Source: an uncultured Clostridia bacterium
Lineage (GTDB): Bacteria > Bacillota > Clostridia > UBA1212 > UBA1255
Direction: 5' to 3'
Assembly (NCBI GenBank): GCA_947625435.1
Contig: CANQOI010000012.1
Location: forward strand, 1-44,857
DNA: 44,857 nucleotides
Numbering within the stretch: the stretch's first letter is position 1; each line of letters begins with the position of its first letter. The notes beneath the pieces are model-generated. The model saw only the letters and a list, made by a program, of their open reading frames with translations, was not told where the DNA came from and searched no databases. Of this stretch, positions 8,919-35,406 are shown piece by piece. Position numbers and translations under genes: made by a program.

Positions 8919-10469
8919 CTATTTTATATCTTTCCTGCAGAAGTTGTCCAGTGCGCTGTAGACCATACATATCAAGATCACGATAATGTATATTACAGAA
9001 AAAATGAGAGACGGGTTCTGTTCTCCCACTCCCGCAAGGAATGTAAGTCCCATATTCACCGTGCCGCCCGACATTCCGCTTCCGGTATAGAATATTCTGC
9101 CGGCTATATCTATGTTGCTGAAAGGCAGGAATTTAATTACGTACGGATATGAATTAAGGAGGCTTTCGAGCACCAGATGCACGATATTCCCTCCGAGGTA
9201 TACTCCCATTGCGATCGATACGGAAGCCGCCGTATTTTTAGTCAGGACAGACAGCATATATGCAAATGTCGCTATGACAAGGAGCGGGATGATTCCTGCC
9301 AGCGACAAGATGAACTGATACAGGAAATAATTTATCTGCAGCGCCGTTCCTCCGATGTACACGATCTTGTCCGAGAAGCCCGTGAATCCGTAGTAGATGA
9401 TACTTACCAAGAACGAAAATACATAGTTATAAATACACAGGAAAACGATCGTCGTCATAATGGACATATATTTCGCGGTAAATATCTTCCAACGTTTCAC
9501 AGGCGCTATTATAAGAGATTTAATGGTGCCCGTAGACATCTCATGAGACATTATGCTGCCTGACAGCAATATGATTATTATAACGGAGAACATATTTCCC
9601 ACCACAGCGGCCATTGAGAAAGACAGACCTCCGGGCGAGTCGTCGGGATCACGTTCAATATATCCGTTATCGATACGTTTTTCATATATCGCCAGATCCT
9701 TTTCAATATCCGCTCTTCTCTCCGGGGTCAGATTTCCTCCCTGAGCCAGATCAACGCCGCTCTCAAGAGATGACCGTATTTTTGCTACATTGTTAAGTAT
9801 CTCCGTCGCATCCGACTTTGCCGTATACGACTCAAATTCTCCGGTAGGATTGAGTGAGAGCATTGCATCATTATAATAGATCGCCGCCGCCTTCTCAGCA
9901 TCGCTGTAATCATCATTTTCGGCTATGCGTTTATTTTCGTTTTCAATATAAGTTTTGTAATCGTATTTCGTTATATAATCGTACAGCTCATCGTACCGCT
10001 CTTGATACCGTCTGTAGTCATCCGAATCCTGATATCCTCCTCTTTCGATCGAAAGCATACTGCTCCTGATCCGGAACATTTCACCGAGGATGTCGTACCT
10101 GTACGAAAGAGTGCGTATATTGTGATCCTTGACCATATACACAAATATATCGTACCATATCATTTCCTCCTTATAATTCATGAGCTCATCGTATATTACA
10201 GACTTATCCTCCTCGGTCTCGGCCTTATCATATCGTTCTTCGTATTCTTTTATCGTCTCTTTAAGTTTTTCGGCGTATTCAAGGTCGCCTTCCGACACGA
10301 TCGGATCGGTTTCTTCATTGGTATAGGACTCAACGAAGCTGTTGGCGATCTTCAGTATCGTGGAGCATCCCGCCATGCCCACTGTCATGACGATAACGAG
10401 CACGAGCACAGATATCTTCTTAAAGCTCTTCAGCATTTCATTTGTATATAAAGCACATATCCTACGCAA
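8919..10469 (-). CDS. ABC-2 type transporter permease with large extracytoplasmic insertion
   Basis: Membrane subunit for the ATPase encoded just upstream. About 516 residues. The first membrane helix is near residues 15-35 (ISVLVLVIVMTVGMAG). A long hydrophilic, charged segment of about 230 residues follows (YAEKLKETIKEYEERYDKAE and onward) and should lie outside the membrane. Five or six helices fill the C-terminal half (MAAVVGNMFSVIIIILLSGSIM, VFLCIYNYVFSFLVSIIYYG, FILSLAGIIPLLVIATFAYML, SVIYIIVILICMVYSAL). GTIKSLIIAPVKRWKIFTAKY is the usual ABC-2 cytoplasmic motif. A TTG at 10469 preceded by GGAGGGGGA with seven-base spacing is the best start; an ATG at 10436 lacks a ribosome binding site. 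It overlaps the ATPase gene by eight bases. Cargo unknown. Confidence 0.82.
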   Translation of the reverse strand: MRRICALYTNEMLKSFKKISVLVLVIVMTVGMAGCSTILKIANSFVESYTNEETDPIVSEGDLEYAEKLKETIKEYEERYDKAETEEDKSVIYDELMNYKEEMIWYDIFVYMVKDHNIRTLSYRYDILGEMFRIRSSMLSIERGGYQDSDDYRRYQERYDELYDYITKYDYKTYIENENKRIAENDDYSDAEKAAAIYYNDAMLSLNPTGEFESYTAKSDATEILNNVAKIRSSLESGVDLAQGGNLTPERRADIEKDLAIYEKRIDNGYIERDPDDSPGGLSFSMAAVVGNMFSVIIIILLSGSIMSHEMSTGTIKSLIIAPVKRWKIFTAKYMSIMTTIVFLCIYNYVFSFLVSIIYYGFTGFSDKIVYIGGTALQINYFLYQFILSLAGIIPLLVIATFAYMLSVLTKNTAASVSIAMGVYLGGNIVHLVLESLLNSYPYVIKFLPFSNIDIAGRIFYTGSGMSGGTVNMGLTFLAGVGEQNPSLIFSVIYIIVILICMVYSALDNFCRKDIK

Positions 10470-32521: not shown

Positions 32522-32917
32522 TCATGATGCCTGTTCGCCTTCATCGGTTTCCATGTAATCGCATGCCGCATCACTCTCGGGAGACATAAAGGGTTCCTGA
32601 GCATCCTGTATATTTTCAGCCTCGTTCTCTTTTATGTCGCCTTCATACTCATGCTGATCACTGCCCTTTTTCATATCAATGAGCATCGGATTTATGTTGT
32701 TGAGAATATCCATAAAGAGTAAGAACTCTTCTCTGTCGAGAGTTATGCCCTTCTGCGGATATCGCCCGTCAACAGACCACATGCGTATATCAAGCTTTTT
32801 GGGTCCGTTGTTCCATCTGATTATGTTTATCTCGATATTGTTCTGATCCGTTTTGTTTATGATCCCGAACCTGCCTTCGATCGTACGTACCAGCGTATTT
32901 TTCCTCTGAGATTCCAT
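32522..32917 (-). CDS. PC4/YdbC-like single-stranded nucleic acid binding protein
   Basis: A 131-residue protein whose N-terminal 75 residues fit the bacterial YdbC branch of the PC4 (transcriptional coactivator p15) fold: IEINIIRWNNGPKKLDIRMWSVDG then KGITLDREEFLLFMDIL. Family members bind ssDNA or RNA as dimers. The C-terminal half (about 85-131) is an acidic, low-complexity tail (EYEGDIKENEAENIQDAQE), not part of the fold, perhaps regulatory like the acidic tail of SSB. GGAGGAGG gives an excellent start. A near-perfect promoter (32978-33006) and a 40-bp palindrome (33005-33044) lie upstream, so expression is probably strong and controlled. Function in this organism unknown. Confidence 0.75.
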   Translation of the reverse strand: MESQRKNTLVRTIEGRFGIINKTDQNNIEINIIRWNNGPKKLDIRMWSVDGRYPQKGITLDREEFLLFMDILNNINPMLIDMKKGSDQHEYEGDIKENEAENIQDAQEPFMSPESDAACDYMETDEGEQAS

Positions 32918-32977
32918 AATAACACCTCCTCCTTTTGTGAATTGTCATAACGGTCACCTCCTTTTGTTTTCAGCGGC

Positions 32978-33006
32978 ATTATACGTTTAAAAGTGAATTT
33001 TGTCAA
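32978..33006 (-). promoter_or_regulatory. Consensus sigma-A promoter of the PC4-like gene
   Basis: On the minus strand TTGACA (33001-33006) and TATAAT (32978-32983), both perfect, are exactly 17 bases apart. The leader of about 55 bases holds two Shine-Dalgarno sites, AAAGGAGGTGACC (before an ATG at 32948) and AAAAGGAGGAGG (before the gene's ATG at 32917). Confidence 0.88.
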
Positions 33007-33044
33007 ATTTCGATATTATTTCCCGGGAAATAATATCGAAATTT
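33005..33044. promoter_or_regulatory. Perfect 40-bp palindrome overlapping the -35 edge
   Basis: Left arm 33005-33024 (AAATTTCGATATTATTTCCC) is the exact reverse complement of the right arm 33025-33044, with no spacer; the centre is CCCGGG. Its end overlaps the -35 TTGACA by two bases. It is neither the terminator of the next gene (that lies at 33110-33154) nor followed by a proper U-run for the minus strand. An operator for a dimeric or tetrameric regulator, an UP-type element, or a cruciform or hairpin are possible. Confidence 0.8.
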
Positions 33045-33109: not shown

Positions 33110-33154
33110 AAAAAAAATCCGATGAGACACCAATCTTGCTGTGTCTCATCGGAT
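33110..33154 (-). terminator. Intrinsic terminator of the NAGPA-dockerin gene
   Basis: ATCCGATGAGACAC (33117-33130) pairs perfectly with GTGTCTCATCGGAT (33141-33154) around a 10-base loop. On the minus strand it is followed by seven T residues, 23 bases past the stop at 33178. Confidence 0.93.
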
Positions 33155-33177: not shown

Positions 33178-35376
33178 TTATCCGTTCGGGAAAGTGTCAA
33201 ACCAACCTGCGATATATTGCAGTATGAGTGTCGCATCCTTGGTGTCCACGGTTCCGTCTCCGTTTACATCGGCGTAAGTAATATCCGCGTTCGCATCTAT
33301 CTGCCATCCGGCTATATGCTGGAGCGTGCAGCTGGCATCGTCAGTCATTACATTGCCGTCGAGAGTCACGTCGCCGAGCATGCCTTCGATCGCAGGTATG
33401 CTTTCCGTTCTCTTGGCTCCGCAATGGGTGCAGGTGTAAGTCTTGACGCCGTCGTGTCCGGGCGTAGCGGGAGTCGTTATGCTTCCCGAATCCCACATAT
33501 GGTATATTCCCTTGGCGAAGTTATCCTCTATCAGAGCGGCTTCATCCGCCGTTTTCGCAAATGACATATTGCTGATCTCGACATAATCGCCTGCCTTCGG
33601 AACTCCGTCAAAGAAATCCATTCTGAAGAAATTGAGATTACCCTTCCATCCCGAGGCATCGCTCAGATCCAATTTTATTATCTGGTATTCTCCGTCATTG
33701 TTCATGTCAAAGTGCACCGAATTGACCTCGCTCGGGCCGAGATTCGTGCCGGCACAGTGGAACAGCTGGAATTTTGACGCGCTTGCTCCGGGCGACGTCC
33801 TGAGTCTCATTATTATGTACTTGTATTCGCTCGCATTGAGCGGGAATTCCGCATTCGTGAAATTGAAGCTTATGTACGGATCCGTTGTTCCCGTGGCCGT
33901 AAGTCTTATGACATTGCCGTCCTGAACGGAAGCTGCGGCATTGTTGCCGTTTGTAAATGATGAATCCATTCCTTTGGGGAAATCAATGTCTATAGGATTG
34001 AATACTACGGGAACTTTTATGTGATCCATGGAGCCCTGTTCGCCCCTGGGCGTATCATTCCAGCATACAGCCATTGAGTTTGCGACGGCACGTTCGCTTC
34101 CGTCGGAAGGTCTGTTCCTTACGACACATGTATCATCCGTATCGTCGTATGTGACAAGTGTCGTCGATCCGCCTCCGTCGAACCAGAAGGCCGTATTGTA
34201 ACCGAGCTCTCTGCAGAAATCCACGAGCTTATTGGCCGGAACGCCGCGGCTGTAATCGCTCTGTCTTCCGTCATTTACGGTTATCATGACTGTTCCGTCG
34301 TCCTTATATCCTACAAGAGTATAGGGCCATCTCGTTCCGTCAAATCCGGTAGCAGGCGCTCCGTCTACGAGTATCGGCATATGGCCGCATATCGCGGAAA
34401 CGCAGTTCTGCCAAAGCTCCTCATTGGTATCTGATGTTATCTGTGTCGATATCGTAAGAACATCTCCTACCTTAAGGCCGCTTATCCTGCTGACTCTGTT
34501 GCCTCTTGCGCTGAGTACCAGATGATTCTTGCTTATAGCGGCCGTGCCGCCCTGTCCCTTCGGATACACGGCTACGACCTTGCCCGTCATTTCACTTCCG
34601 TGACGGAACGCATCGTCGTCAACCTCCACTACAACCTCGCAGGCATCCGAAAGAGCTCTGCTGCTGGCGACTCTCTGATTGTATACTATGAGAGCGTTCT
34701 TGGCCGGTAGTCTGTTGAGTCCGTCGGTCTTGATCGTCTTACCGGAAGTCTTGTTTTCTATTGTTATAGTCACCTTCGGTACGCCCACCACAGGCTGAAA
34801 GTCCTTCGTCATTCCGAGAGCCCACTTAGGCGAAGCGGGGTTGCCCTTTTCTGCGTTCGTAGCCTCGAGCCCCTCCTGATTGATCTCCTGCGACGACCAT
34901 ATCTCTCCGTCGATTATCTGAACGCCTCTCGGGATAGTGAACGTTCCGCCGGTATTAACCTTACCGTGGCTGTGAACGGCAGTCATGTAAAGGTCACCGT
35001 TTACGGCAGCCAGAACGGTCTTTCCGTCATTCTCCGCCGTAAAATCATTTGCGGCGACTCTCACCGTCTTGCGGGATTCGAGGTATTCGCCGTTATTGAT
35101 AGCTTCAAGAGTAAGATTTTTATTTTTGAGATCGAACTCTATCGTGTTGACTACATTAAGTCCGTAGTCACTCGTCGCAGGTATTTTGATCTCAGTGCGT
35201 ACAACGCCTGTCTTAATGCCGTTATATGTAAGCTCCTCGGTCGTACGGGAGCCCTCGCCGCTCAGCGTGCCGGAAGCAAGAGCAGGAGCCGCGGCTCCGA
35301 GCGAAGACACGGCAACTGCTATACATACCATGCACAGCAGAGCAGATGCACCTAAAGATAATATCCTTCTTTTCAT
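33178..35376 (-). CDS. Secreted phosphodiester glycosidase (NAGPA) family protein with dockerin
   Basis: A 732-residue exported protein. Residues 1-35 are a signal peptide ending near PALASG. The NAGPA-type domain (about 95-430) includes VLAAVNGDLYM, MPILVDGAP, RWPYTLVGYKDDGTVMITVNDGRQ and FWFDGGGSTTLV, as in N-acetylglucosamine-1-phosphodiester alpha-N-acetylglucosaminidase and phage/exopolysaccharide hydrolases. A beta-rich carbohydrate-binding-like region follows (about 460-610), then a short Cys pair (CTHCGAK). The last 68 residues are a type I dockerin: two Ca-binding repeats, DVTLDGNVMTDD and DVNGDGTVDTKD, each followed by LQ(H/Y)IAGW. ATG 35376 follows AAAGGGTG. It probably cleaves a glycan phosphodiester or teichoic-acid-like bond outside the cell and may dock onto a cohesin scaffold; none is in the window. 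Confidence 0.9.
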   Translation of the reverse strand: MKRRILSLGASALLCMVCIAVAVSSLGAAAPALASGTLSGEGSRTTEELTYNGIKTGVVRTEIKIPATSDYGLNVVNTIEFDLKNKNLTLEAINNGEYLESRKTVRVAANDFTAENDGKTVLAAVNGDLYMTAVHSHGKVNTGGTFTIPRGVQIIDGEIWSSQEINQEGLEATNAEKGNPASPKWALGMTKDFQPVVGVPKVTITIENKTSGKTIKTDGLNRLPAKNALIVYNQRVASSRALSDACEVVVEVDDDAFRHGSEMTGKVVAVYPKGQGGTAAISKNHLVLSARGNRVSRISGLKVGDVLTISTQITSDTNEELWQNCVSAICGHMPILVDGAPATGFDGTRWPYTLVGYKDDGTVMITVNDGRQSDYSRGVPANKLVDFCRELGYNTAFWFDGGGSTTLVTYDDTDDTCVVRNRPSDGSERAVANSMAVCWNDTPRGEQGSMDHIKVPVVFNPIDIDFPKGMDSSFTNGNNAAASVQDGNVIRLTATGTTDPYISFNFTNAEFPLNASEYKYIIMRLRTSPGASASKFQLFHCAGTNLGPSEVNSVHFDMNNDGEYQIIKLDLSDASGWKGNLNFFRMDFFDGVPKAGDYVEISNMSFAKTADEAALIEDNFAKGIYHMWDSGSITTPATPGHDGVKTYTCTHCGAKRTESIPAIEGMLGDVTLDGNVMTDDASCTLQHIAGWQIDANADITYADVNGDGTVDTKDATLILQYIAGWFDTFPNG

Positions 35377-35406
35377 ATGCCACACCCTTTCGTAAATGTT
35401 GAAAAT

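Follow-up and report, generated by a model that had tools for sequence, protein, structure and literature searches.

A Noc-binding-site sequence as a candidate operator of a PC4-like gene and of competence and sporulation genes in an order of Clostridia

The crystal structure of the nucleoid occlusion protein Noc of Bacillus subtilis contains a Noc-binding site (NBS) oligonucleotide of sequence ATTTCCCGGGAAAT, and specificity for the NBS is set by four residues, Q173, K179, K184 and R201 in Caulobacter ParB numbering (PMC7383237). According to the available text of PMC5540599, the NBS core of Staphylococcus aureus equals that of B. subtilis; the same text describes a small peak of S. aureus Noc at the promoter of dnaA, and one of its section headings speaks of evidence for post-translational action of Noc on replication. 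B. subtilis Noc carries an N-terminal amphipathic membrane helix, in which K2, S4, F5, R7, F8 and F9 were mutated (PMC4331003, as far as its accessible text goes). Among the matches listed in our literature search, none described Noc regulating transcription at specific promoters. SlmA of Vibrio cholerae, a nucleoid-occlusion DNA-binding protein, directly activates the chb operon promoter (PMC5519180, available in part), and the ParB-related proteins KorB and VirB control transcription from specific sites (PMC11790492, PMC10770331 and PMC10676424, each available in part). PC4/YdbC-type proteins carry a single-stranded-DNA-binding domain (PMC9600219, available in part), and the pneumococcal late competence regulon, in the accessible portion of PMC6560143, includes comEA, comEC, a type IV prepilin peptidase gene, recA and the unnamed gene SPV_0683.

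Here, we examined a 14-bp element identical to the published NBS oligonucleotide (PMC7383237), located at 33018–33031 (no strand assigned) of a 44,857-nucleotide stretch of DNA from an uncultured Clostridia bacterium, hereafter the window. A 16-bp form of this core, TATTTCCCGGGAAATA, occupies 33017–33032. The core sequence also appears in published work, including papers on ParB and Noc, and a search for TTTCCGGAAA together with "binding site" returned, among the matches listed, no title on a bacterial regulator. The core lies upstream of a minus-strand gene (32522–32917, stop codon included) encoding a PC4/YdbC-like protein of 131 aa, which was assigned by PF02229 (25.5 bits, above the gathering cut-off of 25) and by alignment with homologues from the same order; a profile of these homologues found the structures of YdbC and SP_0782. 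A promoter scan placed the –35 hexamer TTGACA at 33001–33006 and the –10 hexamer TATAAT at 32978–32983, both on the minus strand and 17 bp apart, matching the consensus at 12 of 12 positions. The first base of the –35 hexamer is 18.5 bp from the core centre and the –10 hexamer is 34 bases from the core end. A frame that overlaps the start of the PC4 gene, possibly a leader peptide, begins at an ATG at 32948 (minus strand) preceded by a Shine-Dalgarno sequence of its own, and a similar ATG precedes the PC4 start in another genome (G001, L003). Upstream, a phosphodiester glycosidase-like gene with a dockerin domain (33178–35385, minus strand) ends at 33178, and an inverted repeat with 14-nt arms and a T run at 33117–33154 (minus strand) is its probable terminator, which went unlisted by the consensus terminator scan because its loop of 10 exceeds the limit of 8 used by that scan.

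In this genome, the core is embedded in a perfect 40-bp palindrome, AAATTTCGATATTATTTCCCGGGAAATAATATCGAAATTT (33005–33044, no strand assigned), and this was the longest perfect repeat among the 8 inverted repeats listed for the window with arms of 14 nt or more and a separation of at most 60 nt. This palindrome is real and not a product of chance. The preliminary description had noted two 20-base arms without mismatch or spacer, an overlap of two bases with the –35 hexamer and a separate terminator for the neighbouring gene about 70 bases away, all of which were recovered here: the arms (33005–33024 and 33025–33044, 20 nt each) are 100% complementary with a spacer of 0, the bases shared with the –35 hexamer are 33005–33006, and the repeat at 33117–33154 is 72 bp away. 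Modelled as RNA, the region folded better than 200 of 200 shuffles (z = –4.22). The 40-mer was nevertheless a single copy in the 2.03-Mb draft genome (G000; 86 contigs) even with up to 3 mismatches allowed, and its inner 36 bp were absent from the 15 other family genomes searched (up to 3 mismatches), on which grounds conservation of the whole palindrome was rejected. The 13 extra pairs beyond the core were the extreme of 79 inspected sites, the next highest values being 9 and 7. Complementarity between the flanks over pairs 2–12 at these 79 sites was 0.34 versus 0.30 expected, and an extended dyad was thus rejected as a general trait of core sites. As judged by these comparisons, both the 40-bp form and the outer 12 bp on each side are peculiar to this genome, and the conserved part is the core only. 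A known RNA family was also rejected, with no Rfam match in the window at gathering scores.

We examined conservation of the core at PC4 loci of the genus, of the order and of public genomes. All four of the remaining genus genomes had ATTTCCCGGGAAAT intact at the PC4 locus, just above the –35 hexamer, while the flanks differed; the earlier expectation that the palindrome is kept near PC4 in relatives therefore failed for the 40-bp form and held for the 14-bp core. PC4 matches were found in 26 of 31 order genomes, giving 29 loci when one locus of G013 (L042) and the second PC4 paralogues (L045–L047) are included. Within 30–200 bp above the PC4 start, the core was exact at 13 of these 29 loci, present with up to two mismatches at 16 and with up to three at 21, whereas a reversed-pattern control never matched with fewer than four mismatches. 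The lack of a core site in G013 says little, because the PC4 start in this genome is uncertain. Several genomes without an exact site had shortened or split relatives of the core at nearly the same place above PC4, and in g11 these were shortened palindromes, 12–14-bp variants of the core. None of 77 public PC4 loci had the core at up to 3 mismatches; the best 80 of at least 578 loci were taken, regardless of kinship to the order, and in 77 of them the sequence upstream was long enough. A general PC4 operator in all bacteria was rejected on this result. The proposal that the element is an operator of the PC4-like gene was well supported by the difference between order and public loci and by the fixed distances to the –35 and –10 hexamers described below, and we consider it probable that the core controls PC4 transcription.

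Exact copies of the core numbered 7 in the genome of origin and 121 in the 31 order genomes, compared to 0 for the reversed control. A further 2 sites with one mismatch and 20 with two mismatches brought the total in the genome of origin to 29, whereas the reversed pattern, with as many as two mismatches allowed, gave 2; this genome thus has the many chromosomal copies that are a trait of the NBS. The seven exact sites were in front of yifB, a prepilin peptidase gene, a comEA-like gene (where the site also faces a divergent aldolase-like gene), a spoIIAA-like gene, a spo0A pair and PC4, with one inside a pepQ-like gene. One two-mismatch version of the core, ATTTCGCGGTAAAT, is found at 9470–9483 in the same window. 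Leaving this 9470 site out, 18 of the 21 near-sites examined (1–2 mismatches) were inside ORFs, or 16 if only ORFs longer than 100 aa are considered.

To describe placement, all 71 exact sites of nine genomes (G000–G008) were inspected, together with 8 from G010 (4 sites), G011, G012, G014 and G023, out of the 121, and 39 sites of a 12-bp core in G020, G022 and G023, for 118 sites in total in the spacing counts; a further G010 site (L214) was listed only and is outside the 118. Of the 71 sites in G000–G008, 46 were intergenic with a gene start no more than 200 bp downstream (6.1% of random positions have a gene start that close), 22 were inside ORFs and 3 were elsewhere, where gene starts came from a script combining ORFs with Shine-Dalgarno sequences rather than from annotation, and the ORFs include doubtful short ones. 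P values for the gene-start and spacing counts overstate independence, because orthologous sites were entered as separate rows.

The same genes recurred beside exact sites, namely spo0A in 8 genomes, the comEA-like gene in 7 (including G010), spoIIAA/whiA in 6, a gene designated X38 in 6, yifB in 5 (including G010) and the prepilin peptidase gene in 3. These neighbour families were linked by blastp and one or two members of each were named by HMM, in some cases below the curated cut-off (spoIIAA, TIGR02886, 109.7 vs 114.75; comEA, TIGR01259, 110.5 vs 152.35, with TIGR00426 above its own). The yifB genes are of the ComM family. The core was found at recA in four genomes, G020, G022 and G023 plus G010 of the same family as the genome of origin; in other families it also accompanied spo0A (G022 and G023) and a comEC-like gene (G020), while many other sites of G020, G022 and G023 were inside ORFs or beside genes without assigned identity. 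Six promoter clusters (PC4, spo0A, comEA, spoIIAA/whiA, yifB and X38) crossed genus boundaries. Five clusters of sites inside genes (pepQ, recF, trmK, mtaB-like and ligA) were, by contrast, confined to g1. The same element was therefore found at promoters of functionally linked genes and conserved across species, as is typical of a promoter operator.

Several features of individual loci were also observed. Next to spo0A, another gene of Spo0A_C type points away from it, with one Noc-type site between both starts (L083, L098, L111 and L123 in G000, G002, G003 and G004). G024–G030 (L387–L393) encode small Spo0A_C proteins whose open frames, at 135–167 aa, could hardly accommodate a receiver domain, and in G025, G029 and G030 these were the only Spo0A_C match. 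X38 is a conserved protein of 353–378 aa encoded beside spoIIIAH; in 6 genomes its promoter has a Noc-type site (L089, L099, L112, L115, L142 and L145), and the two members tested had no Pfam match. A gene family of ~260–280 aa had Noc-type sites at six places in G005 and G006 (L124, L130, L136, L137, L138 and L141), again with no Pfam match for the two members tested. At spoIIAA/whiA, 6 of 6 genomes had a second half-site whose distance did not vary (23, or –17 when mirrored) (L081, L087, L093, L109, L121 and L127). Half-sites around all inspected sites were mildly enriched (19 vs 9.8 expected; 7 vs 5.8 for a control half-site). At comEA in further genera, the core was found at up to two mismatches in 7 of 23 loci, with the reversed control never below 4, and comEA in other genera (g4, f5) had 10–11-bp direct repeats of the half-site or half-sites split around the –35 hexamer.

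Distances between the core and promoter elements were not evenly distributed. Across the 118 sites and both strands, promoters with at least 10 of 12 consensus matches had their –35 hexamers offset from the core centre by 8–10 (8 cases) or 17–19 (16 cases), compared to none at 12–15 and 3 at 21–40, with a background of 0.45 such promoters per 5 bp. Downstream of 74 oriented sites, –10-like hexamers were concentrated at 22 bases from the core end (15/74), at 25 bases (11/74) and at 33–34 bases (14 cases), where about 1.3 per position were expected; lesser groups of 6 were found at 5 bases (five of them spoIIAA) and at 17 bases. The register of 22 included comEA of g1, prepilin peptidase and comEC; that of 25 included PC4 of G005–G007, comEA of G006 and G010 and spo0A of G005 and G006; and that of 32–35 included PC4 of g1, yifB, X38, recA and spo0A of g10. 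Such fixed distances from an element to the promoter hexamers are a trait of promoter operators. Because unrelated genes have the main registers in common, the involvement of a protein acting on RNA polymerase is hard to avoid. Assuming the usual place of the –10 hexamer, arithmetic puts the core of register 22 at about –41.5, which, next to the –35 hexamer, is a classical activator position. Several core-associated promoters had poor –35 hexamers, which are common in activated promoters. The PC4 promoter of the genome of origin is an exception, with near-perfect –35 and –10 hexamers, and would need an activator less because it already matches the consensus at every position. If the core controls PC4, activation is the probable effect, rather than repression.

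The genome of origin encodes a Noc protein (G000:C20) that scored 314.8–315.3 bits with TIGR04285 (cut-off 315) and whose best PDB match, at 173.5 bits, was the nucleoid occlusion protein of 7ol9; a ParB (Spo0J) chain followed at 172.5 bits, a narrow margin that counts against a Noc-type operator, and KorB was also among the PDB relatives of this Noc. Its recognition region (segments GKSQSAIANKVRLLK and SERHARAL) has all four NBS specificity residues, Q, K, K and R, while in ParB of the same genome the first three of these positions are occupied by R, S and N. The helix residues mutated in B. subtilis Noc were absent from its N-terminus, MNRVLMHEAINDGPGRDYITEIP, as judged from sequence only and with another weak helix possible; Noc N-termini differed between genera. 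The membrane half of Noc function may consequently be missing. Four genomes (G016–G019) have a Noc with Q, K, K/R and R, yet no exact NBS. Exact sites are also absent from seven others (G009, G013, G024–G026, G028 and G029), whose Noc homologues are diverged but for the most part retain Q, K and R. This imperfect co-variation of Noc and exact sites counts against Noc as the binder. G006 and G020 have the NBS and no full-length Noc match; since ParB is missing there too, these assemblies probably have a gap near the origin. Noc is favoured as the binder because the exact NBS sequence, the NBS-type residues and the copy number coincide, and taken together these make it the probable, though not certain, protein at the core.

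Three other explanations of the core were weighed against a Noc-type operator. The core sites could be plain NBSs, on which Noc loads, spreads and blocks division over the nucleoid, with the adjacency to the PC4 promoter an accident kept by descent. The exact NBS together with a Noc bearing the right residues speaks for this, several sites are inside genes such as pepQ-like, recF-like, ligA and trmK genes, and B. subtilis has about 70 scattered sites (PMC4331003, accessible text); that 22 of 71 exact sites lie inside ORFs fits plain nucleation and counts against an operator. However, nucleation needs neither a preference for gene starts, nor a spacing to the –35 and –10 hexamers, nor a coherent gene set, and it sits poorly with promoter clusters that cross genera while in-gene clusters stay inside g1 and with a Noc from which the B. 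subtilis membrane-helix residues are absent, such that we consider it improbable. Alternatively, another activator of competence or sporulation might have a motif that coincides with the NBS and read half-sites, ATTTCC(C/G), singly or in phased arrays. The comEA loci of g4 and f5, with half-sites in arrays or split, the 12–14-bp palindrome variants at PC4 in g11 and the eleven genomes with Noc homologues but without exact sites all speak for such a protein, as the arrays and shortened palindromes fit a rigid Noc dimer poorly and are more like the work of a tandem-binding regulator. A second protein reading the same palindrome beside an NBS-type Noc would nevertheless be a coincidence, and the sole candidate family tested, Spo0A_C, is not favoured, since it had no match in 3 of 29 genomes (G013, G015 and G020) that keep exact or 1–2-mismatch sites; this explanation therefore appears doubtful to us.

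A terminator or RNA stem-loop, or a cruciform bound by PC4 itself, is suggested by the strong predicted hairpin and by a terminator-like match on the plus strand. Genes on both sides run on the minus strand, where no T run follows the palindrome, and a separate terminator serves the upstream gene. Beyond the core, the stem was not kept in the four genus relatives, and its length was exceptional among the inspected sites. The core would moreover be excluded from the PC4 transcript, because it is upstream of the predicted PC4 start site. A terminator or RNA stem-loop was rejected on the missing T run and the unconserved stem. The suggestion of the preliminary description that PC4 recognises a cruciform or stem-loop and so regulates itself was not supported either, as only the 14–16-bp core is kept, without the stem-forming flanks, and the core is also found at promoters of unrelated genes; we regard this whole group of structures as very unlikely.

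On balance we lean towards the core being a Noc-type operator, through which Noc would regulate a competence and sporulation regulon that includes PC4. The functional element would be the 14–16-bp core, a Noc-type binding site serving as operator, bound by a protein dimer that is most likely the resident Noc, a ParB-family CTPase. This dimer would sit directly above the –35 hexamer of sigma-A-type promoters, or one helical turn further up, and would probably help RNA polymerase to start transcription. The PC4-like single-stranded-DNA-binding protein would then be a member of a small regulon with spo0A, the spoIIAA-like and comEA-like genes, prepilin peptidase and yifB, to which recA and a comEC-like gene may be added in other genera, and would be made together with DNA-uptake and recombination genes. 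The common wiring of PC4 with comEA, comEC, recA and prepilin peptidase genes suggests that its product helps to handle incoming single-stranded DNA, from which we infer a possible part in transformation. More tentatively, Noc in this order may be a direct, promoter-phased activator of transcription, whether this function was acquired or original, with the PC4-like protein as a competence single-stranded-DNA-binding protein under its control. If this is true, Noc, known as a guard of cell division, would tie the state of the chromosome and cell cycle to entry into competence and sporulation.

Comparison with described systems shows both shared and distinct features. The pneumococcal late competence regulon has comEA, comEC, prepilin peptidase and recA in common with the core-site genes found here, as far as the available text of PMC6560143 goes; there, late competence promoters are activated by ComX, versus an NBS operator here, and that text does not name SP_0782. 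Our literature search found no link between SP0782 and competence. SP_0782 is a PC4-like protein with solved structures, which we take to be pneumococcal and to be the product of the same gene as SPV_0683. KorB and VirB, in the partly available sources, differ in that they are plasmid-borne, with KorB silencing at long range and VirB countering H-NS, and among the matches listed neither is described as a promoter-phased activator of chromosomal genes. SlmA resembles the role proposed for Noc in being a nucleoid-occlusion protein that activates a promoter, but belongs to the TetR family and is described for one operon in the accessible text of PMC5519180, compared to a conserved gene set here. 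The closest likeness in site and protein is to the NBS of B. subtilis and S. aureus, as far as the sources available in part describe it, with the same 14-bp core and a resident Noc carrying the four specificity residues. The 7 exact copies here compare with ~70 loci in B. subtilis and 41 in S. aureus, although these ChAP-chip/ChIP-seq loci are not directly comparable with sequence matches. Unlike B. subtilis Noc as described in that accessible text, the Noc found here is without the published membrane-helix residues, and unlike the NBS of B. subtilis and S. aureus, the sites described here are mostly in promoters, at preferred spacings and near competence and sporulation genes.
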